This document shows positions 24,892 to 63,660 of a DNA stretch of 64,000 nt, in pieces. The stretch comes from Luteibacter yeojuensis. Its GTDB lineage: Bacteria > Pseudomonadota > Gammaproteobacteria > Xanthomonadales > Rhodanobacteraceae. The stretch is taken from positions 1-64,000 of the forward strand of contig NZ_JZRB01000010.1 in assembly GCF_000964085.1 (NCBI RefSeq), written 5' to 3'. A model generated the notes under the pieces. That model searched no databases. It saw nothing but the letters and a program-made list of their open reading frames with translations, and was not told the origin of the DNA. The position numbers were made by a program, and so were the translations under genes. The stretch's first letter is position 1; each line of letters starts with the position of its first letter.

Positions 24892-24929
24892 GTTAAGCAA
24901 AGCCCGTGCCATGAGTGGGGCCGACACCC

Positions 24930-24995
24930 TGTGGGAGCGCGCTTGCGCGCGATGTACTTGCCGAAGGCCCCATCGCGCGCAAGCGCGCTCCCACA
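24930..24995. repeat. REP palindromic pair between two divergent sigma-28 promoters
   Basis: Inverted arms starting GTGGGAGCGCGCTTGCGC flank a short spacer. It is the same family as at 10, 2438 and 51262. It separates the minus-strand chemoreceptor promoter from the plus-strand cheV promoter. In-frame reading of this repeat falsely extends cheV upstream. Confidence 0.88.
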
Positions 24996-25014
24996 AATGA
25001 GGGGCGCCGATGGG

Positions 25015-25041
25015 TCAAGGAAACGGACAAGGCGTCGATAA
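25015..25041 (+). promoter_or_regulatory. sigma-28 promoter of cheV
   Basis: TCAA, a 15-bp gap and GTCGATAA match the FliA consensus in both elements with exact spacing. The transcript would start near 25048, about 29 bp before the cheV ATG, and this supports that start over a longer frame. Confidence 0.85.
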
Positions 25042-25076
25042 CCCGGGAACACCTTTACCTATGCAGCCAACGCACC

Positions 25077-25994
25077 ATGGCCCGTCCGCTCCTCGATACC
25101 GTGGAAACCTTCACCCGCCTGGCGGGCCATAACCGCGTGGCCATGCTGCTGTTCCGGCTGGGCGACAGGCAGGCGTTCGGCATCAACGTGTTCAAGGTTC
25201 GCGAGGTGCTGCGCCGCCCGCGGCTCGAGCGCATGCCCAGCATGCATGAGCTGGTGGCCGGCAGCTTCGATTACCGCGGCCAGACCATCCCCGTGATCGA
25301 CCTCGCCGCCGCCATGGGCTACCCGCCGCTGGCCGCGGCGGAGGGCGCCCACCTCATCGTCACCGAGTTCAGCCGCTCCGTGCAGGGTTTCCTCGTCTCC
25401 GACGTCGATCGCATCGTGCACGTCGACGGCGGCCAGATGGCCGCCCCGCCGCCGGCGCTGGGCTATGGCGCCCGCGTTAACGCGGTGACCCGCCTCGACG
25501 GCGACCTGATGGCGGTGGTGGACGTGGAGCAGGTGCTCGCCGCCGTAAACCCGCAGCAGGTGGAGCTCTCCGACAAGCTGCAGCAGGCCGCCCATGTGCA
25601 GCATGCCGGCACCCGCCGTGTGCTGGTGGTGGACGATTCGCTGGTGGCCCGCACCCAGCTGGCCGACCTGTTCCGCAAGCTCGACCTGGAATGCGTGGTG
25701 GCAAAGGACGGCATGGAGGGCCTGGACATGCTCCGTCGCCTGGCCACCGGCCCGGCCGACGATCGCGTGAACCTGGTGGTGTCCGACATCGAAATGCCCT
25801 CGATGGATGGTTACGCGCTCACCCGCGCCATCCGCGAGGATGCCGCCCTGCGCAAGCTGCCGGTGCTGCTGCACAGCTCGCTCAGCGGCGTGTTCAACGA
25901 GGCCATGGTGGCCCGCGTGGGCGCCGACCGCTTCATCGCCAAGTTCCAGCCCGAAGTGCTGGCCACGGCCGTGCTGGAGCTGCTCCCGGCCTGA
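25077..25994 (+). CDS. cheV: chemotaxis coupling protein CheV
   Basis: A 305-residue fusion of a CheW domain (residues 1-160; NVFKVREVLRRPRLERMP and FDYRGQTIPVIDLAAAMG) and a receiver domain. The receiver motifs are VLVVDDSLVARTQL, phosphoacceptor Asp in VVSDIEMPSMDG, and Lys in RFIAKFQPE. CheV couples receptors to CheA and may act as an adaptation or phosphate-sink element. The ATG at 25077 fits the domain boundary and the sigma-28 promoter; the open frame continues upstream only through REP sequence. It precedes flgB, as in pseudomonads and xanthomonads. Confidence 0.95.
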   Translation: MARPLLDTVETFTRLAGHNRVAMLLFRLGDRQAFGINVFKVREVLRRPRLERMPSMHELVAGSFDYRGQTIPVIDLAAAMGYPPLAAAEGAHLIVTEFSRSVQGFLVSDVDRIVHVDGGQMAAPPPALGYGARVNAVTRLDGDLMAVVDVEQVLAAVNPQQVELSDKLQQAAHVQHAGTRRVLVVDDSLVARTQLADLFRKLDLECVVAKDGMEGLDMLRRLATGPADDRVNLVVSDIEMPSMDGYALTRAIREDAALRKLPVLLHSSLSGVFNEAMVARVGADRFIAKFQPEVLATAVLELLPA

Positions 25995-50212: not shown

Positions 50213-51229
50213 ATGAGCGACATCCTTACCCAGGAAGAAATCGACGCCCTCCTCGCTGGCGTGGAGGGTGGCGCCGTGGAGACGGACGAGGCCCCGCCGC
50301 CGCCGCCCGGCTCGGTGCTCGACTATGATTTCACCCAGCAGGACCGCATCGTCCGCGGCCGCCTGCCCACGCTCGAGATGGTGAACGACCGTTTCGCCCG
50401 TTATTTCCGCGCCAACCTGTTCAATGTGCTGCGGAAATCGTGCGAGGTCTCGGTGCTTGGCGTGAAAATGACCAAGTTCAACGAGTACGTCCATTCGCTG
50501 GCCGTGCCGAGCAACCTCAACCTCATCCGCATCAAGCCGTTGCGCGGCACCGCGCTGTTCGTGTTCGAGCCGCGCCTGGTCTTCACCGTCATCGATAACT
50601 TCTTCGGTGGCGATGGCCGTTACCACGCCCGCATCGAGGGCCGGGATTTCACCCCGACCGAAAACCGCGTCATCCAGATCGTGCTGGCCGAGGCGTTTTC
50701 GGCCATGGCCGAGGCGTGGGCGCCCGTGCTGAAAATGCAGTACGAGTTCCTCAATTCCGAGATCAACCCGCAGTTCGCCAACATCGTGAGCCCCACCGAA
50801 ACCGTGGTGGTATCGCGTTTCCACGTGGAGCTCGACGGCGGTGGTGGTGAAATCCACCTCACCCTGCCGTACTCGATGGTGGAGCCCATCCGCGAACTGC
50901 TGGATGCCGGCGTGCAGAGCGACCGGGCCGAGCGCGACGAGCGCTGGATCCAGAACCTGCACGAGGAAATCCTCGACGCCGAGGTGGAGGTCACCTCCAT
51001 GCTGGCAGAGGCCCGCCTCACCATCGGCGATTTCCTGCACCTGCGCAAAGGCGACATCATCCCCATCAACCTGCCTGACCTGGCCACCGTCTTTGCCGAA
51101 GACGTGCCGATCTTCCGCGGCCGCATGGCCAACGCGGCGGGCAACAAGGCCGTGCAGTTCGAATCGCACATGCGCCGGCCGGCGCTGGCGAAGGCCGCGC
51201 TGCCTGCCCCCGCCGAAGAGCCCGCCTAG
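50213..51229 (+). CDS. fliM: flagellar motor switch protein FliM
   Basis: A 338-residue C-ring protein. The N-terminal CheY-binding peptide is DILTQEEIDALLAGVEGG (residues 3-20). The middle CheC-like domain (EMVNDRFARYFRANLFN ... FNEYVHSLAVPSNLNLI) and C-terminal SpoA domain (LTIGDFLHLRKGDIIPINL) follow. It lies 17 bp after fliL. Its CheY-binding peptide is echoed in CheZ and the CheA linker. Confidence 0.96.
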   Translation: MSDILTQEEIDALLAGVEGGAVETDEAPPPPPGSVLDYDFTQQDRIVRGRLPTLEMVNDRFARYFRANLFNVLRKSCEVSVLGVKMTKFNEYVHSLAVPSNLNLIRIKPLRGTALFVFEPRLVFTVIDNFFGGDGRYHARIEGRDFTPTENRVIQIVLAEAFSAMAEAWAPVLKMQYEFLNSEINPQFANIVSPTETVVVSRFHVELDGGGGEIHLTLPYSMVEPIRELLDAGVQSDRAERDERWIQNLHEEILDAEVEVTSMLAEARLTIGDFLHLRKGDIIPINLPDLATVFAEDVPIFRGRMANAAGNKAVQFESHMRRPALAKAALPAPAEEPA

Positions 51230-51261
51230 CAGCCGGGGCAGCAGGGCGGCAGCACAAACCA

Positions 51262-51328
51262 TGTGGGAGCGCGATTGCGCGCGATGGGTGCTCGCCGCAG
51301 ACCCATCGCGCGCAAGCGCGCTCCCACA
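51262..51328. repeat. REP palindromic pair between fliM and fliN
   Basis: Arms of 28 bp (left has GCGCGATTGCGC, one mismatch from the family) flank an 11-bp spacer. It begins 33 bp after the fliM stop. Confidence 0.88.
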
Positions 51329-51357
51329 GTTCTCACAGGCCTCCCATGGTTTTTTGC

Positions 51358-51417
51358 TGACGGGTCATTCACTGACGTCAAATGACCGTCATGGTGACTA
51401 ACTGCCGTCGTGCGTCA
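51358..51417. promoter_or_regulatory. dense GTCA/TGAC half-site cluster upstream of fliN
   Basis: Eight half-sites occur in 60 bp: TGAC at 51358, 51373, 51383 and 51395; GTCA at 51364, 51377, 51388 and 51414. TGACGTCA (51373-51380) is a perfect palindrome. The cluster is about 95-155 bp before the fliN -24/-12 element. Confidence 0.55.
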
Positions 51418-51430
51418 GGTTTCCGCCATG

Positions 51431-51461
51431 AGCCCCTGCCTGCCAAAAACAGGTAGGGGCT
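51431..51461. terminator. stable hairpin between the half-site cluster and the fliN promoter
   Basis: AGCCCCTGCCTG pairs with CAGGTAGGGGCT (12 bp with one G-T pair) around a 7-nt loop (CCAAAAA). No T run follows on the plus strand. It may end fliLM transcripts or serve as a protein site. With the REP, the half-site cluster and the promoter it accounts for the 341-bp fliM-fliN gap. Confidence 0.45.
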
Positions 51462-51512
51462 AATTGCTTGATAAGTAGGTAAAAATCGTCTCTCCGCCAC
51501 GCGCCAAATCCA

Positions 51513-51528
51513 TGGCACGCCGTTTGCT
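51513..51528 (+). promoter_or_regulatory. sigma-54 promoter of the fliN operon
   Basis: TGGCAC-GCCGT-TTGCT is a full match to the -24/-12 consensus, 42 bp before the chosen fliN ATG. It supports that start over the ATG at 51538, which falls at the predicted transcript start. Confidence 0.93.
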
Positions 51529-51570
51529 TCCATGGGGATGTCATCCCAGCAACGCATCGGACCCCCGGAC

Positions 51571-51903
51571 ATGAACGAACCCAGCCTGCTCGAACCCGTC
51601 GACGGCGCCGCCGACCTCACCAAGTCCATGGGCCTTGGCGCTGATGTGAACCTCGACGTCATCCTCGATGTCCCGGTCACCATGGCCATGGAAGTGGGCC
51701 GCACCAAGATCAGCATCCGCAACCTGCTCCAGCTCAACCAGGGCTCGGTGGTCGAACTCGACCGCGCCGCTGGCGAGCCGCTGGATGTATTCGTCAACGG
51801 CACGCTCGTGGCCCATGGCGAGGTGGTGGTGATCAACGAGAAGTTCGGCATCCGCCTCACCGACGTGATCAGCCCCGCCGAACGCGTCCGCAAGCTCCGC
51901 TGA
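51571..51903 (+). CDS. fliN: flagellar motor switch protein FliN
   Basis: A 110-residue C-ring protein. The SpoA domain is standard (DVILDVPVTMAMEVGRTKIS, LNQGSVVELDRAAGEPLDV, FVNGTLVAHGEVVVINEKFG). FliN and FliM make the C ring and help docking of the export apparatus. It heads fliNOPQR-flhBA. Confidence 0.95.
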   Translation: MNEPSLLEPVDGAADLTKSMGLGADVNLDVILDVPVTMAMEVGRTKISIRNLLQLNQGSVVELDRAAGEPLDVFVNGTLVAHGEVVVINEKFGIRLTDVISPAERVRKLR

Positions 51904-51913
51904 GGGCCCACCC

Positions 51914-52336
51914 ATGCGCCGTATCGTCGCTGCCCTGGCGGGTGGCCTCCTTCCCTGCGCCCTGCTGGCGGCCCCGGCACCGGTGGCCGCCCAGGCGGTG
52001 GATTCGGGTGCGGAGATCGTCCGCGTCCTGGTCAGCCTGCTGGGTGTGGTGGCGCTCATCTTCTTTGTCGGCTGGCTTAGCCGCCGCGCCCAGGCCCGCG
52101 TGCGCCCGGGTGGCCGGAAAATCCGCGTCATCGAGACCCTGCCGGTGGGCATGAAGGAAAAGGTGGTGTTGCTGGAAGTCGGCGGCACGCAGCTGCTGGT
52201 CGGCGCCTCGCCCACCGGCGGCCTGCGTACCCTGCACGTGCTCGATACCCCGGTCCAGGACGACGCCACGCCACCGTCGGCCACGCCGGCGATCCGCGGT
52301 TTCCGCGACATCCTCAGCCAGTGGAAGCGTCCATGA
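51914..52336 (+). CDS. fliO: flagellar biosynthesis protein FliO
   Basis: A 140-residue membrane protein with an N-terminal signal-like helix and a second helix ([20 protein letters not shown]). The cytoplasmic FliO domain follows ([32 protein letters not shown]). It assists FliP ring assembly. It overlaps fliP by 4 bp. Confidence 0.9.
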
Positions 52337-53082
52337 AGTACCTGAAGTGGGGGCTGTGCCTGCTGCTGCTCGCCGCCCCGTTCGCCGCCCTCGCCGCCGA
52401 GCCGCAGGGCATCCCGCTGGTGAACGTCCAGCCGGGCGCCAACGGCGGCCAGCAGTGGTCGCTGTCCATCCAGATGCTGGCGCTGATGACAGCGCTGACG
52501 GTCCTCCCGGCCATCTTGCTGATGATGACCTCGTTCACCCGCATCGTCATCGTCCTGGGCTTCCTGCGCCAGGCGCTGGGTACCAACAGCACGCCGCCGA
52601 ACCAGGTGATCCTGGGCCTGTCGCTGTTCCTCACGCTGTTCGTCATGAGCCCGGTGCTGAACAAGGCCTACGACGCCGGCCTGAAGCCCTACATGGACGG
52701 CCAGATGAGCGTCCAGGACGCGCTGCCGGCCGCCGCGGCGCCGTTCAAGCATTTCATGCTGGAGCAGACCCGCGAGCCCGACCTGCAGCTCTTCACCAAG
52801 CTGGCCGGTGAGCAGCCGTATGCCGACAAGGAAGCCGTGCCGTACCGCGTGGCCCTGCCGGCCTTCGTCACCAGCGAGCTGAAGACCGCGTTCCAGATGG
52901 GCTTCCTGCTGTTCATTCCGTTTTTGATCATCGACCTGGTCGTTGCCTCGGTGCTCATGTCCATGGGCATGATGATGGTGTCGCCCATGATCATCTCGCT
53001 GCCGTTCAAGATCATGCTCTTCGTGCTCGTGGACGGCTGGACCTTGCTGCTCGGCACCCTCGCGGGGAGCTTCTTCCAATGA
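52333..53082 (+). CDS. fliP: flagellar export gate protein FliP
   Basis: A 249-residue polytopic gate subunit with a cleavable signal peptide ([13 protein letters not shown]). [20 protein letters not shown], then [19 protein letters not shown] and the C-terminal [20 protein letters not shown] are hallmark FliP. The start at 52333 (ATGA overlap) is preferred to 52321. Confidence 0.96.
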
Positions 53083-53348
53083 CGCCCGAATCGGTCATCG
53101 GCTTCGGCCAGCAGGCCCTGCACATCGCCATGCTCATCGGCGCGCCGTTGCTGCTCACCGCCCTGGCGGTGGGCCTCATCATCGGCATGGTGCAGGCCGC
53201 CACCCAGATCAACGAGCAGACCCTCAGCTTCATCCCGAAGCTGATCTGCATGGCCCTGGTGGCCATCATCACCGGCCCGTGGATGCTGCGGACCATGGTG
53301 GATTTCACCCGCAACCTCATTGAAAACCTGCCCCAGGCGGTGCGTTGA
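53079..53348 (+). CDS. fliQ: flagellar export gate protein FliQ
   Basis: An 89-residue protein with two transmembrane helices and the family core [20 protein letters not shown] and [20 protein letters not shown]. It joins FliP and FliR in the export gate. It overlaps fliP by 4 bp. Confidence 0.96.
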
Positions 53349-54121
53349 TGCCCCTGGACCTCGGCCAGCTCGAGGGGTGGGTGGGCAGCGCCTGCTGGGC
53401 GCTCGCCCGCATCAGCGGCCTGATGCTGGTGGCGCCCGTGCTGGGCGCCAACACCATCCCCATGCGCATCCGCCTCGGCCTCACCGTGCTGCTCACGGTG
53501 GTGCTGGCGCCGCTCGCGCCGCTGGACATCCGCCCGCTCTCGGCCGCCGGCGTGGCCACGCTGGCCCAGCAGGTGCTGCTGGGCGCCGCCGTGGGCTTCG
53601 TGCTGAAGCTGGTGTTTGAGGCGGTCTCGTTCGGTGGCCAGTTCGTCTCCCAGGCCATGAGCCTGGGTTTCGCCGAGGTGGTGAACCCCGGCGTGGGCGG
53701 TACCACGCCCGTGCTCAGCCAGTTCTACACGATGCTGGTCACGCTTATGTTCCTGGCCATGAACGGCCACCTGCAGCTCATCGACCTGCTGGCCCAGAGC
53801 TTCCGCACGCTGCCCGTGGGGCAGGGTGGCATCGGCGCGGACGGCCTGTGGGGCGTGCTCACGTTCGCCAGCCACCTGTTCGCCGGCGCGGTGCGCGTGG
53901 CGCTGCCGGCCCTCACCGCCGTCCTGGTCGTGAACCTGGGTTTTGGCGCCATCAGCCGCTCCGCGCCGTCGATGAACCTGTTCGCCGTCGGCTTCCCCAT
54001 CACGATCTGCCTGGGCATGGTCGCCGTGTGGCTGGCCCTTCGCGGCCTGCCCAGCGCCTTTGATTCGCTCACCACCGACGCCTGGGAAGCCATGCGCGGG
54101 CTCACGGGGGGCACGCCGTGA
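53348..54121 (+). CDS. fliR: flagellar export gate protein FliR
   Basis: A 257-residue polytopic gate protein. ALARISGLMLVAPVLGANTI, FVSQAMSLGFAEVVNPGVGG and LVVNLGFGAISRSAPSMNLF are characteristic. The ATG at 53348 shares a base with the fliQ stop. It overlaps flhB by 4 bp. Confidence 0.95.
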   Translation: MPLDLGQLEGWVGSACWALARISGLMLVAPVLGANTIPMRIRLGLTVLLTVVLAPLAPLDIRPLSAAGVATLAQQVLLGAAVGFVLKLVFEAVSFGGQFVSQAMSLGFAEVVNPGVGGTTPVLSQFYTMLVTLMFLAMNGHLQLIDLLAQSFRTLPVGQGGIGADGLWGVLTFASHLFAGAVRVALPALTAVLVVNLGFGAISRSAPSMNLFAVGFPITICLGMVAVWLALRGLPSAFDSLTTDAWEAMRGLTGGTP

Positions 54122-55263
54122 GCGAGGGTGCGGACAAGGAAGACAAAACCGAAGCCCCTAGTGAAAAACGCCTTCGCGAAGCGCGTGAAAAGGGCGAACT
54201 ACCACGCTCGCGCGAGCTGTCCACGGCCATCGTGGTGCTCGCCGGCGTGGCCATGCTGCTGGCCTCGCACGAGCAGATGGCCATGCACGCGGCCAACATC
54301 ATGCACGTGGGCCTGCAGTACGGCCGCGACGACCTGTTCGCGGCCGACGGGTTCCGCCGCGCCCTGATGACGGCCCTCATCGAGGCCCTGCGCATGCTGG
54401 CCCCGCTGTTCGCGGTGACCATGGCCGCCTCGGTGGCCGCCCCGGCGCTCATGGGCGGCCTCAATTTTTCGTTCCAGGCGCTGGCGCCCAAGTTCGACCG
54501 CCTGAACCCGGTGCAGGGTTTCTCCCGCCTGGTGTCGAAAAACGGCCTGGTGGAACTGGGCAAGTCCCTGCTCAAGCTGGCCTTCATCGGCGGCGCGCTG
54601 GCCTGGTACCTGCGCAAGAGCACCTCGGAGATGTACGCCGTGGGCTCGGGCCCCGTGAAGGAGGGCATCGCCCACGCGTTTGGCCTGTTCGGCAGCGCCT
54701 CGCTCATCTTCGCCTGCGCCCTGGCCGCCATCGGCCTCATCGACGCGCCGTGGCAGAAGTACAGCTTCACCTCGAAGATGAAGATGACCAAGCAGGAAGT
54801 GAAGGACGAGCACAAGGAGAACGAGGGCTCGCCGGAGCTGAAGTCAAAAATCCGCCAGATGCAGCACCAGATGGCCCGGCGCCGCATGATGGAGGACGTG
54901 CCCACGGCCGACGTCATCATCGCCAACCCGACGCACTTCTCGGTCGCCCTCAAGTACGACGAAAACCGCATGGGAGCGCCCCGCGTGGTGGCCAAGGGCA
55001 TGGATGTCATCGCCCTGCAGATACGGCAGATCGGCTCCGATGCGAAGGTTCCGGTCGTGGAAGCGGCCCCGTTGGCACGAGCCTTGTATCACACGACGGA
55101 AATCGGACGCGAAATCCCCTCGGCCCTGTACGTGGCCGTGGCCCAGATCCTGGCCTACGTGTTCCGTTTGAAGCAGGCGATCGCCACCGGCGACCTCCCG
55201 CCCGACATGCCCCAGCAGGACATCGATCCGGAGCTGATGGGCCCATACCGCATGGACAAGTGA
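54118..55263 (+). CDS. flhB: flagellar export switch protein FlhB
   Basis: A 381-residue gate protein. A short cytoplasmic N terminus (DKTEAPSEKRLREAREKGEL) precedes four membrane helices. The self-cleaving NPTH motif is at residues 270-273 (IANPTHFSVAL) within the cytoplasmic domain that switches substrate from hook to filament. It uses a GTG start overlapping the fliR stop. Confidence 0.96.
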   Translation: MSEGADKEDKTEAPSEKRLREAREKGELPRSRELSTAIVVLAGVAMLLASHEQMAMHAANIMHVGLQYGRDDLFAADGFRRALMTALIEALRMLAPLFAVTMAASVAAPALMGGLNFSFQALAPKFDRLNPVQGFSRLVSKNGLVELGKSLLKLAFIGGALAWYLRKSTSEMYAVGSGPVKEGIAHAFGLFGSASLIFACALAAIGLIDAPWQKYSFTSKMKMTKQEVKDEHKENEGSPELKSKIRQMQHQMARRRMMEDVPTADVIIANPTHFSVALKYDENRMGAPRVVAKGMDVIALQIRQIGSDAKVPVVEAAPLARALYHTTEIGREIPSALYVAVAQILAYVFRLKQAIATGDLPPDMPQQDIDPELMGPYRMDK

Positions 55264-55268
55264 CTTAG

Positions 55269-57380
55269 ATGGCAGCTTCCTCCACGACCTTGATGGGCAC
55301 GTTCAGGCAGATCGGCCGCCGCGGCGTCGCGGCGCCGGTGGCCATGCTGATCATGCTCGGCATGATGATGCTGCCGCTGCCGCCGTTCCTGCTCGACCTG
55401 CTGTTCACGTTCAACATCGCGCTGTCGCTGGTGATCCTGCTGGCCACCATGTACGTCATGCGCCCGCTCGAGCTGGCCTCGTTCCCCACGGTGGTGCTCT
55501 TCGCCACCCTGCTGCGCCTGGCCCTGAACATCGCTTCCACCCGCGTGGTGCTGCTGCACGGCCACAACGGCCCGGGCGCGGCCGGCCACGTCATCGAGGC
55601 GTTCGCCGAGTTCGTCATCGGCGGCAACTTCGCCGTCGGCTTCGTGGTGTTCGCCATCCTCACCATCATTAACTTCGTGGTGGTGACCAAGGGCGCCACC
55701 CGCGTGTCGGAAGTGACCGCCCGCTTCACCCTCGACGCCATGCCCGGCAAGCAGATGGCCATCGACGCCGACCTCAACGCCGGCCTGCTCACCCAGGAAC
55801 AGGCGCGCGAGCGCCGCCAGGAAGTGCGCGAGGAAGCCGACTTCTACGGCTCGATGGACGGTGCCTCGAAGTTCGTCCGCGGCGATGCCACCGCCGGCAT
55901 CCTCATCCTCGTCATCAACATGCTCGGTGGCTTCTTCATCGGCATGTTCCAGCACGGCCTCTCGGCCGGCGAAGCCGCCCGCACCTACACGCTGCTGACC
56001 ATCGGCGACGGCCTCGTCGCCCAGGTGCCGGGCCTCATGCTCTCCATCGCCACCGCGGTCATCGTCACCCGCGTGTCGAAGTCGCAGGAGATGGGCAAGC
56101 AGGTGTTCGGCCAGCTGTTCGGCCAGCCCAAGGCGCTGGGCGTGGCCGCGGCGGTCATCGGCACCATGGGCCTCATCCCGGGCATGCCGAACATCCCGTT
56201 CCTGCTGCTCGCGGCGCTGGCGGGCTTCGGCGCCTACAAGATGCACCTGCGCCAGCAGGCCCCGGCCGCCGCCGCCGGCACCCCGGGCGCGCCGGGCACC
56301 GAGCTTGCGCCCATGGATGCCGCGCCGCCGGCCGAGCGCCTGGAACTGTCGTGGGAAGACGTGGCCCAGGTGGATACGATCGGCCTTGAGGTGGGTTACC
56401 GCCTCATCCCGCTGGTGGACAAGGCGCAGGGCGGCGAGCTCATGGCGCGCATCAAGTCGGTGCGCCGCAAGCTGTCGCAGGAGCTGGGCTTCCTGGTGCC
56501 GTCAGTGCACATCCGCGACAACCTCGACCTGGCCCCGCACGGTTACCGCATCTCGCTCATGGGCGTGCCCATGGGCGAGGCCGAGATCCACACCGAGCGA
56601 ATGCTCGCGATCGACCCGGGCCGCGTGCACGGCACCATCAACGGCATCGCCACCCGCGACCCGGCGTTCGGGCTCGACGCGGTGTGGATCGAGCCGGGCC
56701 TGCGCGAGCACGCGCAGACCCTGGGCTACACCGTGGTCGACCCGGCCACCGTCATCGCCACGCACCTGTCGCACATCCTGCAGAACCACGCCCACGAGCT
56801 CATCGGCCACCAGGACGTGCAGCAGCTGCTCGACCGCCTGGCCCAGCAGACGCCGAAGCTGGTGGAAGACCTGGTGCCGAAGCGCCTGTCGCTGGGCGCC
56901 GTGGTCAAGGTGTTGCAGAACCTGCTCGCCGAGCGCGTGCCCATCCGCAACTTCCGCGGCATCGTCGAATCGTTGGCGGAGCACGCGGGCCAGAGCCAGG
57001 ATCCCGGCGTCCTCGCCGCCGCCGTGCGCGTCACGCTCGGCCGCCAGATCGTGCAGGAGATCGCCGGCCTGGGTACCGAGGTGCCTGTCATTACTTTGGC
57101 ACCCGAACTGGAACAGATCTTGCTCCAGTCCCTGCAAGGCGGTGGTCCCGCCGGCGCGGCCGTCGAGCCGGGCCTGGCGGACCGCCTGCAGAAAAGCGTC
57201 GCCGATGCGGCGCGCCGCCAGGAAGCGGCCGGCGAACCCGCCGTCCTCCTCGTCTCGCCGGCGCTTCGTCCGTGGTTGTCGCGCTTCACGCGGCATGTGG
57301 CCCAAAACCTGCATGTACTTGCGTACAACGAAGTCCCGGATAACCGCCGCGTCAAGTTGGTGACGGCGCTGGGGCGATAA
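55269..57380 (+). CDS. flhA: flagellar export gate protein FlhA
   Basis: A 703-residue export gate subunit. About eight membrane helices precede a large cytoplasmic ring domain (from about residue 350). The FHIPEP signature is present (LLRLALNIASTRVVLLHGHN). Full length and intact. It lies 5 bp after flhB. Near its stop GTCAAGTTGGTGAC (57351-57364) has a GTCA-N6-TGAC layout, within codons for RVKLVTALG. Confidence 0.97.
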   Translation: MAASSTTLMGTFRQIGRRGVAAPVAMLIMLGMMMLPLPPFLLDLLFTFNIALSLVILLATMYVMRPLELASFPTVVLFATLLRLALNIASTRVVLLHGHNGPGAAGHVIEAFAEFVIGGNFAVGFVVFAILTIINFVVVTKGATRVSEVTARFTLDAMPGKQMAIDADLNAGLLTQEQARERRQEVREEADFYGSMDGASKFVRGDATAGILILVINMLGGFFIGMFQHGLSAGEAARTYTLLTIGDGLVAQVPGLMLSIATAVIVTRVSKSQEMGKQVFGQLFGQPKALGVAAAVIGTMGLIPGMPNIPFLLLAALAGFGAYKMHLRQQAPAAAAGTPGAPGTELAPMDAAPPAERLELSWEDVAQVDTIGLEVGYRLIPLVDKAQGGELMARIKSVRRKLSQELGFLVPSVHIRDNLDLAPHGYRISLMGVPMGEAEIHTERMLAIDPGRVHGTINGIATRDPAFGLDAVWIEPGLREHAQTLGYTVVDPATVIATHLSHILQNHAHELIGHQDVQQLLDRLAQQTPKLVEDLVPKRLSLGAVVKVLQNLLAERVPIRNFRGIVESLAEHAGQSQDPGVLAAAVRVTLGRQIVQEIAGLGTEVPVITLAPELEQILLQSLQGGGPAGAAVEPGLADRLQKSVADAARRQEAAGEPAVLLVSPALRPWLSRFTRHVAQNLHVLAYNEVPDNRRVKLVTALGR

Positions 57381-57405
57381 GGCTTAGAAGGACAGGATCG
57401 ATCAC

Positions 57406-58758
57406 ATGAAAATCAAACGATTCGTAGCACCCGACATGCGCCAGGCCATGCGCCAGGTCCGCGATGAGCAGGGTCCGGATGCCGTGATCCTGTCCACGCG
57501 CCGCATGGACGATGGCATCGAGATCATCGCCGCGCTGGATTACGACGAGGCCCTGGTGCGCGAAGCCGGCTTCGCCTACGAGCCGCCGGCCGCCGAAGAG
57601 AAGATCGAACCGATCCGCGCCACCCGTGGCAACCGCGAGGCCGAGCGCGCCGCGCGCGTCGACCAGGCCCGCCTGGCCACCGCCGCCGCCGTCGAGCGCG
57701 CCACGAAAGCCGCGCCGGCCAACCCGAACGCGCCGCAGCGCCAGTCGTCCGCCGCGCTGGCCGCCAGCGTCGCCGACGTGGTCCGTGCCGCCACGGTCAA
57801 CGCCGCGCCGGCGCAGAACGATACCGCCGTGAACGGCATGCGCGCCGAGATCAACAACCTGCGCGAGATGCTGGAAGTGCAGCTCTCCGCGCTGGCCTGG
57901 AACCAGATGGACCGCGAGCAGCCGCTGCGCGCACGCGTCCTGCGTGAAATGACCCGCCTCGGCATCGATGGCGACGTGGCCCGCGCGCTGTGCGCCGAGC
58001 TGCCCGAGAACATGACCGCGGAGCAGGCGCGTTACCTGCCCCTGGGCATCCTCTCGCGCAATATCCGCACCAGCGGCCGCAACTTCGATACCGTGGGCGG
58101 TGGCGTCACCGCGTTCGTCGGCACCACCGGCGTGGGCAAGACCACCTCCATCGCCAAGCTCGCCGCCCGCGCGGTGCTGCGCCACGGTGCCGCCAACGTC
58201 GCGCTCATCAGCGCCGACCAGTACCGGATCGGTGCCGGCGCGCAGCTCGAGCATTACGGCCGCCTGCTGGGCGTGCGTGTCTACAGCGCCCACGACGCGC
58301 AGACGCTGCGCAACGCGCTGATCCAGCTGCGTGGCAAGCACACCGTGCTGATCGATACCGCCGGCCTGGCCGGCAACGACCCGAAGCTGCAGCAGCAGTT
58401 CGAGACGCTGCGCGCCATGGCCGATGTCCGCGTTTGCCTGGTGCTGGCCGCCAACGCGCAGGCCCAGGCCATCGACAACGCCCTGCGTGCCTACGCACCG
58501 CTGAAGCCGCAGAGCGCCATCCTTACCAAGCTCGACGAGACGCCGCTGCTCGGTGGCGCCCTGTCGGCCCTGATCCGGCATGGCATGCCGCTCGACTACA
58601 CCACGGATGGCCAGCGCGTGCCCGAGGACATCGCCTCCGCCGACGCGCGCAAGCTGGTCTGCCTGGCAGCCCAGATGCTCAAACAGCGTAACGACGAACC
58701 GGATGACGCCATACTTGCCGATCGCTTCGGCTTCGCGTCCTCCCCGGCCATGGCCTGA
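57406..58758 (+). CDS. flhF: polar flagellar GTPase FlhF
   Basis: A 450-residue SRP-type GTPase that places the flagellum at the pole. The N-terminal region (MKIKRFVAPDMRQAMRQVRD) is FlhF-type. The C-terminal NG domain has FVGTTGVGKTTSIAKLAARA, ISADQYRIGAGAQLEHYGRL, LIDTAGLAGND and LTKLDETPLLGGAL. AAGGACAGG precedes the ATG. flhG follows directly, as in polar flagellates. Confidence 0.95.
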   Translation: MKIKRFVAPDMRQAMRQVRDEQGPDAVILSTRRMDDGIEIIAALDYDEALVREAGFAYEPPAAEEKIEPIRATRGNREAERAARVDQARLATAAAVERATKAAPANPNAPQRQSSAALAASVADVVRAATVNAAPAQNDTAVNGMRAEINNLREMLEVQLSALAWNQMDREQPLRARVLREMTRLGIDGDVARALCAELPENMTAEQARYLPLGILSRNIRTSGRNFDTVGGGVTAFVGTTGVGKTTSIAKLAARAVLRHGAANVALISADQYRIGAGAQLEHYGRLLGVRVYSAHDAQTLRNALIQLRGKHTVLIDTAGLAGNDPKLQQQFETLRAMADVRVCLVLAANAQAQAIDNALRAYAPLKPQSAILTKLDETPLLGGALSALIRHGMPLDYTTDGQRVPEDIASADARKLVCLAAQMLKQRNDEPDDAILADRFGFASSPAMA

Positions 58759-58770
58759 TACCCGACACCG

Positions 58771-59706
58771 ATGACGACCGTGAACCTGGCAACCGCATCC
58801 TCGAACTCTTCCCGGGCAGTAAATTCCTTCATGACCACACATGTCGACAACACGCAGGCCGCTGGGCTCAACTGGCTCGCCGACCGCCGCCCCACCCGCA
58901 GCATCGCGATCGCGGGCGGCAAGGGTGGCGTGGGCAAGACGACGGTGGCCGTGAACCTTGGCATGGCGCTCGCCATGGGCGGCCGTGATGTCCTCATCCT
59001 CGATGCCGACCTGGGCATGGCGAACATCGACGTGCTGCTGGGCCTGCAGCCGCAACGCCACCTGGGCCACATGCTCGAAGGCAGCTGCCGCATCGAGGAC
59101 CTGGTGCTCGAGGCGCAGCACGGGCTGAAGGTCATCCCGGCCACCTCCGGCACGCGCCGCATGGCCCAGCTGCCCAACATCGAGCATGCCGCGGTCATCC
59201 GCGCGTTCGACGAGTACCCGCTGGCCCCCGAATACCTGCTCGTCGACACCGCCGCCGGCATTTCCGACAGCGTGTCGATGTTCGCCGCGGCATCCGATGA
59301 AGTGGTCATCGTGGTCTGCGACGAGCCGGCCTCGCTCACCGACGCATACGCGCTCATCAAGGTGCTGTCGCGTGAGTTCGCGGTGAGCCGCTTCCGCATC
59401 GTGGCCAACATGGTCCGCCATGCGCAGGAGGGCCGCCAGCTGTTTGAAAAGCTTTCCCGGGTGGCTACCCGCTTCCTGGATGTGTCGCTCGATTTCATGG
59501 GCATGGTGCCGCACGACGAGTACCTGCGCCAGGCGATCCGCCGCCAGTCGGCGGTGGTCGATGCCTGGCCCAGCAGCCGTTCGGCGGTGGGATTCAAGAA
59601 TCTGGCCAGGTCGGTCGATACATGGGGTGAACCCGAACCTCGTGGCCAGGGTCGCATCGGCTTTTTCGCCGGCCGCGACCACGTGGGGGGAGGGCTGCCG
59701 TTGTGA
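58771..59706 (+). CDS. flhG: flagellar number regulator FlhG/FleN
   Basis: A 311-residue MinD-type ATPase limiting flagellar number. The deviant Walker A is IAGGKGGVGKTTVAVNLG; LILDADLGMANIDVLLGL and VDTAAGISDSV follow, and the C terminus is amphipathic. In Pseudomonas it inhibits FleQ, closing a loop with fleQ at 41287. The start at 58771 or an ATG at 58831 cannot be separated; neither has a good ribosome site. Confidence 0.92.
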   Translation: MTTVNLATASSNSSRAVNSFMTTHVDNTQAAGLNWLADRRPTRSIAIAGGKGGVGKTTVAVNLGMALAMGGRDVLILDADLGMANIDVLLGLQPQRHLGHMLEGSCRIEDLVLEAQHGLKVIPATSGTRRMAQLPNIEHAAVIRAFDEYPLAPEYLLVDTAAGISDSVSMFAAASDEVVIVVCDEPASLTDAYALIKVLSREFAVSRFRIVANMVRHAQEGRQLFEKLSRVATRFLDVSLDFMGMVPHDEYLRQAIRRQSAVVDAWPSSRSAVGFKNLARSVDTWGEPEPRGQGRIGFFAGRDHVGGGLPL

Positions 59707-60434
59707 GCGTCGCGAGCGAATACCTTGAAATCACTAAGGTTCCGGCCGATCAACTGGTGAAAACGCATGCGCCGCTGGTGCGCCGGATCGCCTATCACCT
59801 GATGGGCCGCCTGCCGCCCAGCGTCGATGCGAACGACTTGATGCAGGCCGGCATGATTGGCCTGCTCGAGGCGGCAAGGAACTACTCGCCGACGCGCGCG
59901 GCCAGCTTCGAAACCTATGCGGGCATCCGCATTCGTGGCGCCATGCTGGATGAACTGCGCAAGACGGACTGGACCCCGCGCAGCGTCCACAGGAAATTGC
60001 GCGAGGTGGCGGAAGTAACAAGGCAGATCGAGAACGAAACAGGTGGCGATGCCGGCGACGTGGAAGTGATGAAGCGTCTTGGCATCGATGCCATGGAGTA
60101 CAACCAGATCCTGGCCGACGCGGCGAGCGCGCGGTTGCTGAGCCTCACGGCGCCCGAAGGCGACGAGGGTTCCGCGATCGACGTGGCCGACCCGGACGCC
60201 GCGGGCCCCGATGGCCTGTTCGAGCAGGCCGGCATGCGCGGCGCGCTTGCCGAGTCCATCGACGGCCTGCCGGAGCGCGAAAAGCTGGTGATGTCGCTGT
60301 ACTACGATGAAGAACTCAACCTGAAGGAAATCGGTGCGGTGCTGGGTGTGAGCGAATCGCGCGTGTGCCAGATCCATGGCCAGGCCCTGATCCGCCTCCG
60401 TGCGCGCATGTCGGGTTGGAAAGACAAACACTAA
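59703..60434 (+). CDS. fliA: flagellar sigma factor FliA (sigma-28)
   Basis: A 243-residue sigma-70-family factor. Region 2 is VRRIAYHLMGRLPPSVDAND with DLMQAGMIGLLEAARNYSPT, and region 4 is LNLKEIGAVLGVSESRVCQIH. It should read the four TAAA/TCAA-N15-GCCGATAA-type promoters at 22751, 24865, 25015 and 36602. It uses a GTG start overlapping the flhG stop. FlgM (22409) is its inhibitor. Confidence 0.95.
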   Translation: MSVASEYLEITKVPADQLVKTHAPLVRRIAYHLMGRLPPSVDANDLMQAGMIGLLEAARNYSPTRAASFETYAGIRIRGAMLDELRKTDWTPRSVHRKLREVAEVTRQIENETGGDAGDVEVMKRLGIDAMEYNQILADAASARLLSLTAPEGDEGSAIDVADPDAAGPDGLFEQAGMRGALAESIDGLPEREKLVMSLYYDEELNLKEIGAVLGVSESRVCQIHGQALIRLRARMSGWKDKH

Positions 60435-60464
60435 AGTTTCGCGGCAGTAAGGCGGAGAGACGTT

Positions 60465-60866
60465 TTGGACAAGAACATGAAGATCCTCGTGGTGGACGAT
60501 TTCTCCACCATGCGGCGTATCGTCCGCAACCTGCTGGTTGAGCTGGGTTTCACCAACACGCTCATCCAGGAGGCCGAAGACGGCAACGCGGCCCTGGCGC
60601 TGCTGCGCTCGCAGCCCATCGACCTGGTCGTCACCGACTGGAACATGCCGAACATGACCGGCATCGACCTGCTGCGTGCCATCCGCGCCGATGCCGCGCT
60701 GAAGAAGCTGCCGGTGCTCATGGTCACCGCGGAGAACAACCGCGACCAGATCATCGCCGCCGCGCAGAGCGGTGTGAACGGCTACGTCGTGAAGCCGTTC
60801 ACGGCCGTCACGCTGAAGGAAAAACTCGACAAGATCTTCGAACGACTCGCCGCGGCCGCGGGCTAA
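60465..60866 (+). CDS. cheY: chemotaxis response regulator CheY
   Basis: A 133-residue single receiver. [19 protein letters not shown], the phosphoacceptor Asp58 in [10 protein letters not shown], Thr in VTAENN and the Lys in [11 protein letters not shown] are all present. A TTG start at 60465 is preferred because GGAG sits 7 bp upstream and the LDKNM start matches pseudomonad CheY; an ATG at 60477 is the alternative. Phospho-CheY binds FliM. Confidence 0.95.
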
Positions 60867-60876
60867 GGGACTGACC

Positions 60877-61518
60877 ATGAACACCACGATTTCCTCTGGC
60901 CAGGACGTCGCGCCCGAGCTGCGCGAGCTGCTCGACGCCGACGACAACGCCGCGTTCGAACAAGCGCTCGACCGCCTCATCCGCAGCCGCGAACAGCACC
61001 TGTTCCTGGCGCTGGGCCACCTCGCGCGCGACCTGCACGAATCCGCCCGCCGTCTCTCGGCCGATTTCTCGGACGAGGGCCTGCCGGGCACCATGAGCGA
61101 CGCGCGCACGCACCTGCGCGACGTGCTCGAGATGAGCGCCACCGCGGCGCATCGCACGCTCGATTTCAGCGAGAAGCTGCGCCCGCAGGCGCAGTCGCTC
61201 GCGAAGCAGGCCGATGAACTGCTCGTGCTCGACCACGCCGACCCCACCTTCGCCGCCAACGCCACGTCGCTGGCCGTGCGCGTCGGTGATTTCGCGCAGA
61301 ACTGCGACATCGGCCTCGGCGAGATGGTCGAGGCCCAGTCGTGGCAGGATCTCTCCGGCCAGCGCGTCGCCAAGGTCGAGGCCTTCATGGCCAAGGTCGA
61401 ATCCTCGCTGGTCGAGCTGGTGCGCCTCACCGGTTCGCTCGCGGGCGCCAACACGCCGGCCGCGGACAAGGTCAGCCAGGACGAAGTGGATCGGCTCCTC
61501 AGCGAATTCGGCTTCTAA
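60877..61518 (+). CDS. cheZ: CheY-P phosphatase CheZ
   Basis: A 213-residue helical phosphatase. The catalytic segment SWQDLSGQRVAKVEAFM has the conserved Asp and Gln. The C-terminal CheY-binding peptide is VSQDEVDRLLSEFGF (199-213), similar to the FliM N terminus. It lies 10 bp after cheY and 6 bp before cheA. Confidence 0.95.
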   Translation: MNTTISSGQDVAPELRELLDADDNAAFEQALDRLIRSREQHLFLALGHLARDLHESARRLSADFSDEGLPGTMSDARTHLRDVLEMSATAAHRTLDFSEKLRPQAQSLAKQADELLVLDHADPTFAANATSLAVRVGDFAQNCDIGLGEMVEAQSWQDLSGQRVAKVEAFMAKVESSLVELVRLTGSLAGANTPAADKVSQDEVDRLLSEFGF

Positions 61519-61524
61519 CCCGCC

Positions 61525-63660
61525 ATGAGCGTGGAGCTGGACAACGAGCTGCTCAACGTCTTCCTGATCGAAGCACGCGAGCTCCTGGAGACCCTGGGCG
61601 AACAGCTCGTGGACCTCGAGGCGTCGCCGGAAGACAGCGACCTCCTGAACGCGGTGTTCCGCGCGTTCCATACCGTGAAGGGCGGTGCGGGCTTCCTTGG
61701 CCTGAACGCCATGGTCGAGCTGTGCCACCGCGCGGAGGATCTGCTCAACGAAGCGCGCAACGGTGCCATCGTGCTCAACGCGGGCCTCATGGACGCGTTG
61801 CTGGAATCGCTCGACCTGCTGAACGACATGATGCGCGCGGCCGATGCCGGCGTGGCCATCGAGGCCGCGCCGCGCTCGCTGCTCGATCGCCTCGTCATCC
61901 CGGGGCGTGTCGCCTCGGCGCCACCCGTGGCGCTGGCCGTGCCTGTCAGTGCGCCTAAACCGGCGGCGGTGCCCGTCACCGCGGCCGTGGCCCCGGCGAA
62001 GCCCTACGACCCGATCGAAGACGAATTCGAAGCCATGCTCGACGCCGCGCGCGCCGAGCGGGCGCCCGCGCCCGAATCCAACGGCACCATCAGCGACGAC
62101 GAGTTCGAGGCGCTGCTCGATTCGCTCTACGGCACCGGCGCCCCCGGCGAAGAAGCCGCAGCGCCCGTCGAGGCTCTTGTGGGTGCAGGCTCGCCCGCGA
62201 TGCCGCCGGAGCCCGCGATGCCCGAGGCCCCCACCGACGGCAGCATCAGCGACGACGAATTCGAAGCCCTGCTCGACCAGCTCTACGGCACCGGCGCCCC
62301 CGGCGCCGACGACGCGGCCGCAAGCGCGCCGACGATGCCCGCGCCGGAGCCTGCCCTTGTGGGAGCCGGCGTGGCTCTTGTGGGAGCCGGCTCGCCGGCG
62401 ATACCGGCGCAGCCGGCCGAACCCGCCAAACCCGCGCCCGCCCCCAAACCCGCCCCCACTGCCGAAAAACGGCAACCCGCCGCCGCGGCCGACACCACCG
62501 TCCGCGTCGACACCCACCGTCTCGACAGCCTGGTCGATGCGGGGGGCGAACTCGTGCTGGTGCGCAACCGCCTCATGAACCTCGCCCCGCGCGGCACCAA
62601 CGACCCGATGGAACGTGCCATCGGTGAGTTGGAGCGCGTGGCCGAAGATCTGCAGAACGCCGTGCTGCGCATGCGCATGCAGCCGGTGGGCAAGCTGTTC
62701 TCGCGTTTCCCGCGCATCGTGCGCGACCTTGCCCGCCAGCTGGGCAAGGAGATCGAACTCGTCACCGAGGGCGAGGAAACCGATATCGACCGCACCGTGG
62801 TGGAGGCCCTGGCCGACCCGCTGGTGCACCTGCTGCGCAACGCCGTCGACCACGGCATCGAGATGCCCGACGTGCGCGACGACGCCGGCAAGCCGCGTGC
62901 CGGCACCGTGCGCCTGGCCGCAGGCCAGTTCGGCGACCGCATCGTCATCACGGTCACCGACGACGGCAAGGGCATGGACCCGGACGTGCTGCGCCGCAAG
63001 GCCGTCGAGAAGGGCCTGATGGACGAGGAGCAGGCTGCCCGCCTCGACGAGCGCGAGTGCTACGAGATCGTGTTCCGCCCGGGCTTCTCCACGGCCAGCC
63101 AGGTCTCGGATATTTCCGGCCGCGGCGTCGGCATGGACGTCGTGAAGACAAAAATCGTCGAACTTGGCGGTACCCTGTCGATTGATTCGCGGGTGGGCCA
63201 CGGCAGCACGGTTCGGCTCTCGGTGCCGTTGACGCTCGCGATCCTGCGCGTGCTCATGGTGCGCGTGGGCCACCGCCTGCTGAGCCTGCCCATGTCCAAC
63301 GTCGCCGAAGTGTTCGAACTGGCCGCCGGCCAGGTCCAGGAACTGGATGGCCGCGTCGTGGCCGCGCACCGCCAGCGCGCGCTGCCGCTCGCCGACCTGG
63401 GCAACTGGGCCGGCGCGAAGGGCAGGGGTGGCCATGTGGTGGTGGTGCAGATCGGCCACCAGACGCTCGGCTGCCTCGTCGATGAGGTGCTTGGCCGCGA
63501 AGATGTCATGGCCAAGCCGCTGGGCCCGTTCCTCAAGGACGTGCCCGGCGTCGCCGGCGCCACCATCACGGGCGACGGGCGCATTTCGCTGGTGCTCGAC
63601 CTCGCGGGCCTCGCCGACGACAGCGGCCAGGTGCTGCCCAGCCTGAGGATGGCTGTCTGA
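61525..63660 (+). CDS. cheA: chemotaxis histidine kinase CheA
   Basis: A 711-residue kinase. P1 carries His49 in AFHTVKGGAGFLGL. Residues 150-320 form an Ala/Pro-rich linker instead of a clear P2 domain, with three DEFEA-type motifs (163, 189 and 241). P3 starts at about 330 (VDTHRLDSLVDAGGELVLVR). P4 has LLRNAVDHGIE (N), DDGKGMD (G1) and GRGVGMDVVK (G2). P5 is the CheW-like tail. REP-like DNA is translated in frame in the linker (LVGAGSPAM at 218, LVGAGVALVGAGSPAI at 278). Confidence 0.95.
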   Translation: MSVELDNELLNVFLIEARELLETLGEQLVDLEASPEDSDLLNAVFRAFHTVKGGAGFLGLNAMVELCHRAEDLLNEARNGAIVLNAGLMDALLESLDLLNDMMRAADAGVAIEAAPRSLLDRLVIPGRVASAPPVALAVPVSAPKPAAVPVTAAVAPAKPYDPIEDEFEAMLDAARAERAPAPESNGTISDDEFEALLDSLYGTGAPGEEAAAPVEALVGAGSPAMPPEPAMPEAPTDGSISDDEFEALLDQLYGTGAPGADDAAASAPTMPAPEPALVGAGVALVGAGSPAIPAQPAEPAKPAPAPKPAPTAEKRQPAAAADTTVRVDTHRLDSLVDAGGELVLVRNRLMNLAPRGTNDPMERAIGELERVAEDLQNAVLRMRMQPVGKLFSRFPRIVRDLARQLGKEIELVTEGEETDIDRTVVEALADPLVHLLRNAVDHGIEMPDVRDDAGKPRAGTVRLAAGQFGDRIVITVTDDGKGMDPDVLRRKAVEKGLMDEEQAARLDERECYEIVFRPGFSTASQVSDISGRGVGMDVVKTKIVELGGTLSIDSRVGHGSTVRLSVPLTLAILRVLMVRVGHRLLSLPMSNVAEVFELAAGQVQELDGRVVAAHRQRALPLADLGNWAGAKGRGGHVVVVQIGHQTLGCLVDEVLGREDVMAKPLGPFLKDVPGVAGATITGDGRISLVLDLAGLADDSGQVLPSLRMAV
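62177..62202 (+). repeat. REP-like segment inside cheA (first)
   Basis: TTGTGGGTGCAGGCTCGCCC followed by GCGATG resembles a REP unit of the GTGGGAGC...GCGAT type with several changes. It is read in frame as LVGAGSPAM in the linker. Confidence 0.5.
62357..62402 (+). repeat. REP-like segment inside cheA (second, tandem)
   Basis: TTGTGGGAGCCGGCGTGGCT then TTGTGGGAGCCGGCTCGCCG and GCGAT. The second part is a full REP-like unit with a GCCGGC-TC-GCCGGC hairpin. Read in frame as LVGAGVALVGAGSPAI. Confidence 0.65.

Follow-up and report, generated by a model that had tools for sequence, protein, structure and literature searches.

Tandem FliM- and CheZ-like helices in the P2-less linker of a Luteibacter yeojuensis CheA: candidate CheY-docking motifs of a widespread gammaproteobacterial kinase type

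The C-terminal peptide of the phosphatase CheZ binds the chemotaxis response regulator CheY. The N-terminus of the motor protein FliM does so as well, through the known motif LSQxEIDxLL (PMC5677366), and a structure of CheY in complex with it has been solved, as titles of structure entries record. CheA kinases can bind CheY through their P2 domain, yet about half of CheAs have been reported to lack P2 and to have an unstructured region between P1 and P3 (Berry, Andrianova and Zhulin 2023, PMC10782961). The loss of P2 is thus itself already known from that survey, and how such kinases select CheY is the question addressed here. The main text of the survey never uses the word 'motif', and we found no description of conserved linker helices there; nor did we find an account of the present linker motifs in a search of open-licence papers. 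Here we analyse a stretch of 64,000 nucleotides (nt) of Luteibacter yeojuensis (contig NZ_JZRB01000010.1, positions 1 to 64,000, assembly GCF_000964085.1; hereafter the window), whose CheA holds in its linker two full copies of a short motif fitting ISDDEFEALLD[SQ]LYG. We report that this motif marks a whole CheA type that is widespread in the class Gammaproteobacteria and tied to the absence of P2, and we consider what it may bind.

An earlier note on this DNA had drawn attention to the peptides at the start of FliM and the end of CheZ, and to the CheA repeats with a weaker copy, EDEFEAMLD, ahead of them; all are present in the translations (Table 1). When the kinase core (P3-P5), which is free of the motif, was searched for across the class, the matches fell into a high-scoring group of 107 genomes beside the window's (E < 1e-100) and a lower group. 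Sixty loci were hand-picked from the high-scoring genomes, and 20 controls from the lower-scoring matches listed. The motif stands in 58 of the 60 loci in one to eight copies (one copy in two loci, two in 29, three in 23, four in three and eight in one) and in 1/20 of the other CheAs, that of L127, which has one variant copy in a linker with no P2-like block; 16 of these 20 show such a block by eye. In the window's own family and order, all 49 loci carry it (L039, the window's, is one of them), 32 with two copies and 17 with three. So do 80 of 80 named loci, which were taken as the highest-ranking of 594 matches to an alignment of 16 CheAs of the window's type, limited to their core, and come mostly from Pseudomonas, with Stutzerimonas, Methylomonas, Alteromonas and others among them. 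Seventeen of 20 further loci have the motif; two (L271 and L272) belong to a sister type described below, and the third, L290, in which none was found, lies on a contig that is cut off and leaves 31 amino acids (aa) of linker. As for the two class-wide misses, L118 has two degenerate versions, DDDLEAILDQVHG and DDELDFEALLDAAHG, while L119 shows no motif, in a genome without CheZ (PF04344) whose nearby CheY is only distant. The consensus over 149 copies is I(0.91) [TS](0.94) [DE](0.98) [DE](0.85) E F [ED](0.97) A(0.60) L(0.92) L(0.99) D(0.95) x L(0.81) H(0.64) G(0.77).

That P2 is absent from these linkers required a test of its own. Pfam finds the Hpt, dimerisation, HATPase and CheW domains in 60/60 CheAs (the window's and 59 others) and no P2 in 60 CheAs of the window's type; it was rejected as a test of P2, having found none in the 20 control CheAs either, including the 16 with a P2-like block. 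Since Pfam is blind to P2 in the controls, the real test is a home-made profile, trained on the 16 control linkers with a conserved P2-like block, chosen by eye, and leaving out L121, L126, L127 and L136. In leave-one-out scans the 16 controls scored 83-188 bits, and 12 of 20 out-of-class CheAs, none of them used in training, scored 57-133 bits. By comparison, the best score was 2.5 bits among 109 linkers of the window's type (the 60 class-wide and the 49 of its family and order) and 3.2 bits among the 100 further loci (80 named and 20 additional). Three of the four excluded controls scored 11.0, 6.3 and 1.7 bits, and these may be P2-less or have another P2. The earlier note had seen no P2 in the linker and had named a folded P2 within residues 150-320 beforehand as the finding that would tell against its proposal; this was looked for and not found. 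An AlphaFold2 model of a relative (L194) contains P1, a short helix after P1, the motif helices and otherwise low-confidence coil up to P3, with no P2 fold. Over the sample taken, motif and P2 are nearly exclusive.

The likeness of the motif to the ends of FliM and CheZ was measured with a profile of the 149 copies, which were drawn from the CheAs at 58 other loci, all outside the window's order. Scanned over the 94,698 positions in the window's stop-to-stop open reading frames (ORFs) of 60 aa or more, it placed the three CheA copies at ranks 1-3 (54.4, 50.4 and 19.9 bits), the FliM N-terminus at rank 5 (3.8 bits) and the CheZ C-terminus at rank 17 (-2.4 bits), so that the likeness is more than chance. 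The CheA motif matches both peptides in register, as had been claimed, and has the FliM/CheZ-type pattern of an acidic N-cap, a hydrophobic residue at position 0 and LL at 3-4. In other genomes, judged against a background of 76,439 16-mers taken from the other proteins encoded in L061-L120, 24 FliM starts scored 1.7 bits at the median, a value that 24 of the 16-mers attain (about 1 in three thousand), and 52 CheZ ends -9.4 bits, attained by 167 (about 1 in five hundred); the resemblance is therefore good for FliM and modest for CheZ. Of 29 FliM loci, five had been dropped because the start pattern failed to match, and since this pattern presupposes a FliM-like end, a degree of selection enters the FliM figures. 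The commonest CheZ end among 147 locus entries, three of them the window's own, is QDDVDDLLSSLGF. At the DNA level, a pattern for DEFE-x-LL (with codons DSN for x) has two matches in the whole genome, both in the window's CheA.

We consider docking of CheY by tandem FliM/CheZ-like helices to be the best reading of these sequences, with a probability of roughly 0.55. With P2 absent, the P1-P3 linker would be a disordered tether, rich in A and P, that bears short amphipathic helices (one to several, usually two or three) of the pattern [DE]-[DE]-I-[ST]-[DE]-[DE]-E-F-E-x-L-L-D-x-L-[HYQ]-G. Each helix would dock on the alpha4-beta5-alpha5 face of CheY, as the FliM N-terminus and the CheZ C-terminus do, so that several CheY molecules could be held near phospho-P1, and after phosphorylation the motor and phosphatase peptides would compete for that same face. 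Because the motif copies are kept in related bacteria, it is they that are predicted to do the docking. That CheY is the partner, that this face is used and that copy number has an effect are steps that we infer.

P2-less linkers of other CheAs bear on this proposal. L271 and L272, from a phylum-wide draw, have CheY and CheZ as neighbours and neither motif nor P2, and a search around genome G592 found a match in 60 of 120 genomes. The best 30 of these 60 loci (L291-L320) together with L271 and L272 make up a sister type, in which 32 of 32 linkers (31 distinct, L291 being from the same genome as L271) hold a single [DEN]-W-x-x-L-[YH]-x-x-[LV]-x-G helix or a near variant. P2 reaches at most 4.4 bits in the 30 sister linkers scanned, and 0.9 and -1.1 bits in L271 and L272; EFxxLL occurs in none of the 32. 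The sister helix has the spacing of EFxxLLxxLxG, with hydrophobic residues at 0, 3, 4 and 7 and, in 26 of 31, glycine at 9. This spacing pattern, which was drawn up after the motifs had been seen, is found in 57 of 60 motif-type linkers, 26 of 31 sister linkers and 1 of 20 controls; after shuffling, the mean counts were 0.46, 0.16 and 0.36, respectively. In four of the 20 out-of-class CheAs (L256, L257, L269 and L270), P2-less by profile, there is a helix GEV[STP]x[DE][DE]LER[AM]F, spelled unlike the others. Taken with the sister helix, it indicates that P2-less linkers are repeatedly not featureless. Among the out-of-class CheAs there is also a repeated helix pair of the VGEILVxxGxV type, in place of P2 in L251 and L252, and a similar pair after a P2-like block in L258, L260-L263 and L267.

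Several observations weigh against CheY docking by the motif helices. AlphaFold2, given a single read-through CheY+CheA chain of L194, forms helices at the motifs, and their confidence is no higher with CheY: the predicted local distance difference test (pLDDT) of the motif blocks is 85/78 with CheY in the chain vs 84/85 without it. A Foldseek search with this CheY+CheA model had CheY chains among the 50 matches listed of 1352. The CheYs of the two CheA types differ at positions 94, 103 and 126, each nearly fixed differently. Q94, V103 and N104 are each present in 193 of 194 motif loci; of the 29 readable sister loci, all have N94 and A103, and 26 have S104. In the complex from E. coli, positions 92, 94 and 103 are described as facing P2 (PMC7184735). 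The differences between the two types nonetheless show no concentration on the 4-5-5 face in a permutation test (p 0.73). As the two types are moreover two clades, residue covariation was rejected as evidence for docking and the differences are not counted. Chance 16-mers within CheZ score above every FliM end, and an acidic N-capped amphipathic helix is a common shape. The CheA of L119 has neither motif nor P2. From the literature, E. coli CheA is said to work without P2 as an essential part (Berry 2023, PMC10782961), so nothing need replace P2. A Pseudomonas putida study treats CheA as a five-domain protein like that of E. coli, with a CheY-binding piece in its interaction tests (PMC11978298), and a review places the Vibrio cholerae LID between P2 and P3 (PMC7534058). 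The CheAs of both genera should be of the present type. Among the CheAs of our sample, none of them identified as coming from P. putida or V. cholerae, the Pseudomonas linkers have motifs and no P2 signal by profile. In favour of docking, the P. putida study reports that CheA brought down both CheY and CheZ in pull-downs, and that it phosphorylated CheY (PMC11978298). The recruitment of CheY proposed in the earlier note is therefore upheld in part, namely by the absence of P2, the shared register and the near exclusivity, and not by any gain in AlphaFold2 confidence.

It is unlikely, if deserving of serious attention, that the motifs are instead the CheA LID, binding the CheW-like domain of ParP (or, in the absence of ParP, CheW, CheV or P5) and holding CheA in polar arrays. 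A region of Vibrio CheA before P3 binds the AIF domain of ParP, and the LID is said to occur only together with ParC/ParP (PMC5706961, PMC7534058). In the window's locus a 190-aa gene stands between the gene of a ParC-like ATPase and cheW; we take it for ParP because of this position and because it resembles other genes so placed, and Pfam found no domain in its product. In an exploratory comparison of L039-L056, the first motif copy lacks its LxG tail in 4/4 loci with ParC and has it in 14/14 without, but the split is weak elsewhere: loci with ParC number 26 without and 22 with the tail in L061-L120, and 5 and 11 in L273-L289. This leaves room for the diverged first copy as a LID. Genome-wide matches to ParC nevertheless fall into two groups, 226-560 bits in 6 genomes and at most 140 bits in 18, and those to a ParP profile likewise, 86-144 bits in 4 genomes (three of them rows of the profile, G110 not) and at most 40 bits in 16. 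Fourteen genomes of the window's family have the order cheY-cheZ-cheA-motC-motD-cheW without ParC and ParP. These 14 together with G128 and G308, representing three families, lack ParC/ParP by these searches and keep two or three motif copies, which shows that the motif does not occur only with ParC/ParP and is not kept only for ParP. A recruitment of CheZ, or a mimicry of CheZ that competes with it rather than holding CheY for phosphorylation, would fit the resemblance of the motif profile to the CheZ C-terminus and the CheZ that came down with P. putida CheA (PMC11978298), but two genomes without CheZ (PF04344), G218 and G265, keep three and one copies. We regard this as highly improbable, and since the motif persists both without ParC/ParP and without CheZ, its role is not confined to binding ParP or CheZ. 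In L194, CheA directly follows CheY, and no CheZ was detected in the locus.

As a separate observation on ParC and ParP, Pseudomonas aeruginosa is said to lack ParC/ParP-related genes (PMC12410967). L148, L151-L159 and other named Pseudomonadaceae have a ParC-like neighbour with 224-247 bits to the window's ParC, and the L148 and L151-L159 loci also have ParP-like neighbours at 40-48 bits (Pseudomonas and close relatives, P. aeruginosa itself being outside the set).

Binding of the helices to some other array or polar partner, or to the kinase core (P4/P5) so as to regulate CheA, would make the FliM/CheZ likeness a convergence. We think this rather unlikely. The Pfam SHOCT profile has matches in 34 of 60 motif-type CheAs at E 0.01, and in the window's CheA the match lies on the motif, below the curated cut-off (best E elsewhere 2.9e-9); a SHOCT identity for the motif was rejected and the match read as convergence, though it also tells against the CheY reading. 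The independence of the AlphaFold2 helices from CheY points the same way, but the near exclusivity with P2 and the hydrophobic spacing common to CheY-binding ends would then be coincidence. An equal docking of receivers generally, CheB and CheV as much as CheY, appears improbable. In its favour, P2 docks both CheY and CheB (PMC11978298), and the window has a CheV-like ORF; against it, peptides of the FliM type are CheY ligands.

If CheY docking by the motif helices is correct, a widespread type of chemotaxis kinase works via multivalent short motifs that compete with the ends of the motor and phosphatase proteins for a single CheY face. It would also bear on the CheY changes R92K, Q94N and V103A, placed at the CheA P1-P2 interface (Ortega et al. 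2020, PMC7184735). More tentatively, P2 may not simply have been lost but have been replaced in several lineages by lineage-specific helical motifs with hydrophobic residues at 0, 3, 4 and 7 and glycine at 9 within a disordered linker. These would be EFxxLLxxLxG in tandem for the motor CheA of Gammaproteobacteria, a single DWxxLYxxLxG for the sister type and perhaps GEVSxDDLERAF elsewhere. Related peptides of kinase, motor and phosphatase would then compete for one CheY face, the copy number of the kinase motif could set the local CheY concentration, and the diverged first copy might have become the ParP-binding LID. This broader scheme is possible but doubtful as a whole.

Positions in the window are collected in Table 1. 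We take its CheA to be putatively F6-like, F6 being one of the phylogenetic chemosensory classes of Wuichet and Zhulin, on the basis of its neighbours cheY, cheZ, motCD, parC, parP-like and cheW and of the score gap in the class-wide core search.

Table 1. Features of the chemotaxis and motor genes in the 64,000-nt window
Feature	Position	Strand	Remarks
cheA	61525..63660	+	711 aa, coding part 61525-63657; P1/Hpt 8-99, P3 324-383, P4 431-570, P5/CheW 576-699 (Pfam)
cheA P1-P3 linker			long, P2-less by P2 profile
Motif copy 1, ISDDEFEALLDSLYG	62089..62133	+	CheA residues 189-203; 50.4 bits by motif profile
Motif copy 2, ISDDEFEALLDQLYG	62245..62289	+	CheA residues 241-255; 54.4 bits by motif profile
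Diverged first copy, IEDEFEAMLD	62014..62043	+	CheA residues 164-173; no LxG tail; 19.9 bits
99-nt direct repeat, unit 1	62064..62162	+	includes motif copy 1
99-nt direct repeat, unit 2	62220..62318	+	81% identical to unit 1; 156 nt apart
cheY	60465..60866	+	TTG start as listed; fifth codon is ATG
cheZ	60877..61518	+	coding part 60877-61515
CheZ C-terminal peptide, VSQDEVDRLLSEFGF	61471..61515	+	translation; motif-profile rank 17
fliM	50213..51229	+	coding part 50213-51226; product starts MSDILTQEEIDALLAGVEGG
FliM N-terminal peptide, ILTQEEIDALLAG	50222..50260	+	motif-profile rank 5 of 94,698
CheV-like ORF	24915..25994	+	CheW domain; receiver read by eye; start uncertain; other possible partner

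Both full motif copies sit in the 99-nt direct repeats, so the pair looks like an internal duplication. In the CheA of L077, whose linker is 578 aa long, an extended PAKPAAA repeat comes after the eight motif copies. The CheA of L103, a locus whose genome lacks ParC/ParP by the searches used, has three copies of the unit LPEGVDPDG[ED]ITDDEFEALLNQRD, in which the tail is altered. A REP (repetitive extragenic palindromic)-like GTGGGAGCGCGCTTGCGCGCGAT element occurs in the window at 12, 2440, 24932 and 51264 (+) and at 75, 24993 and 51326 (-), and within the linker (62173-62417) in-frame TGTGGGAGCCGGCTCGCCGGCGAT and its kin, translated VGAGSPA, resemble this element. At the protein level, the relatives L017, L023 and L027 have VGAASAAI or VGADSSAI repeats in their linkers. 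It seems that the CheA linker accepts inserted palindromic repeats as coding sequence.

Compared with described CheY ligands, the CheA motif has in common with the FliM motif LSQxEIDxLL the acidic N-cap, the hydrophobic residue at 0, LL at 3-4 and a hydrophobic residue at 7. It differs in being internal, repeated and part of a kinase, and in having F for I at 0, D after LL and an LHG/LYG tail. With the CheZ C-terminal peptide (QDDVDDLLSSLGF) it has the same spacing, V0..LL3-4..L7, although that peptide is C-terminal and single and its profile likeness is only modest. Among kinases, the window's CheA resembles those surveyed by Berry et al. (PMC10782961), which are likewise P2-less with an unstructured P1-P3 region. 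Like the Vibrio CheA-LID, the motif lies in the linker of a CheA with ParC/ParP-like neighbours, but the LID is said to be confined to species with ParC/ParP, whereas the motif is not so confined. Borrelia CheA2, with two P2 domains, has more than one CheY-docking unit per kinase (PMC10703414), as is proposed for the window's CheA; its units are folded P2 domains, and those of the window's CheA would be short motifs. The P2 of E. coli and Thermotoga (Pfam P2, CheY-binding) occupies the same site between P1 and P3, where CheY docking next to P1 is also proposed for the window's CheA, but P2 is a folded domain, whereas the window's CheA has in its place a disordered linker with tandem short helices.

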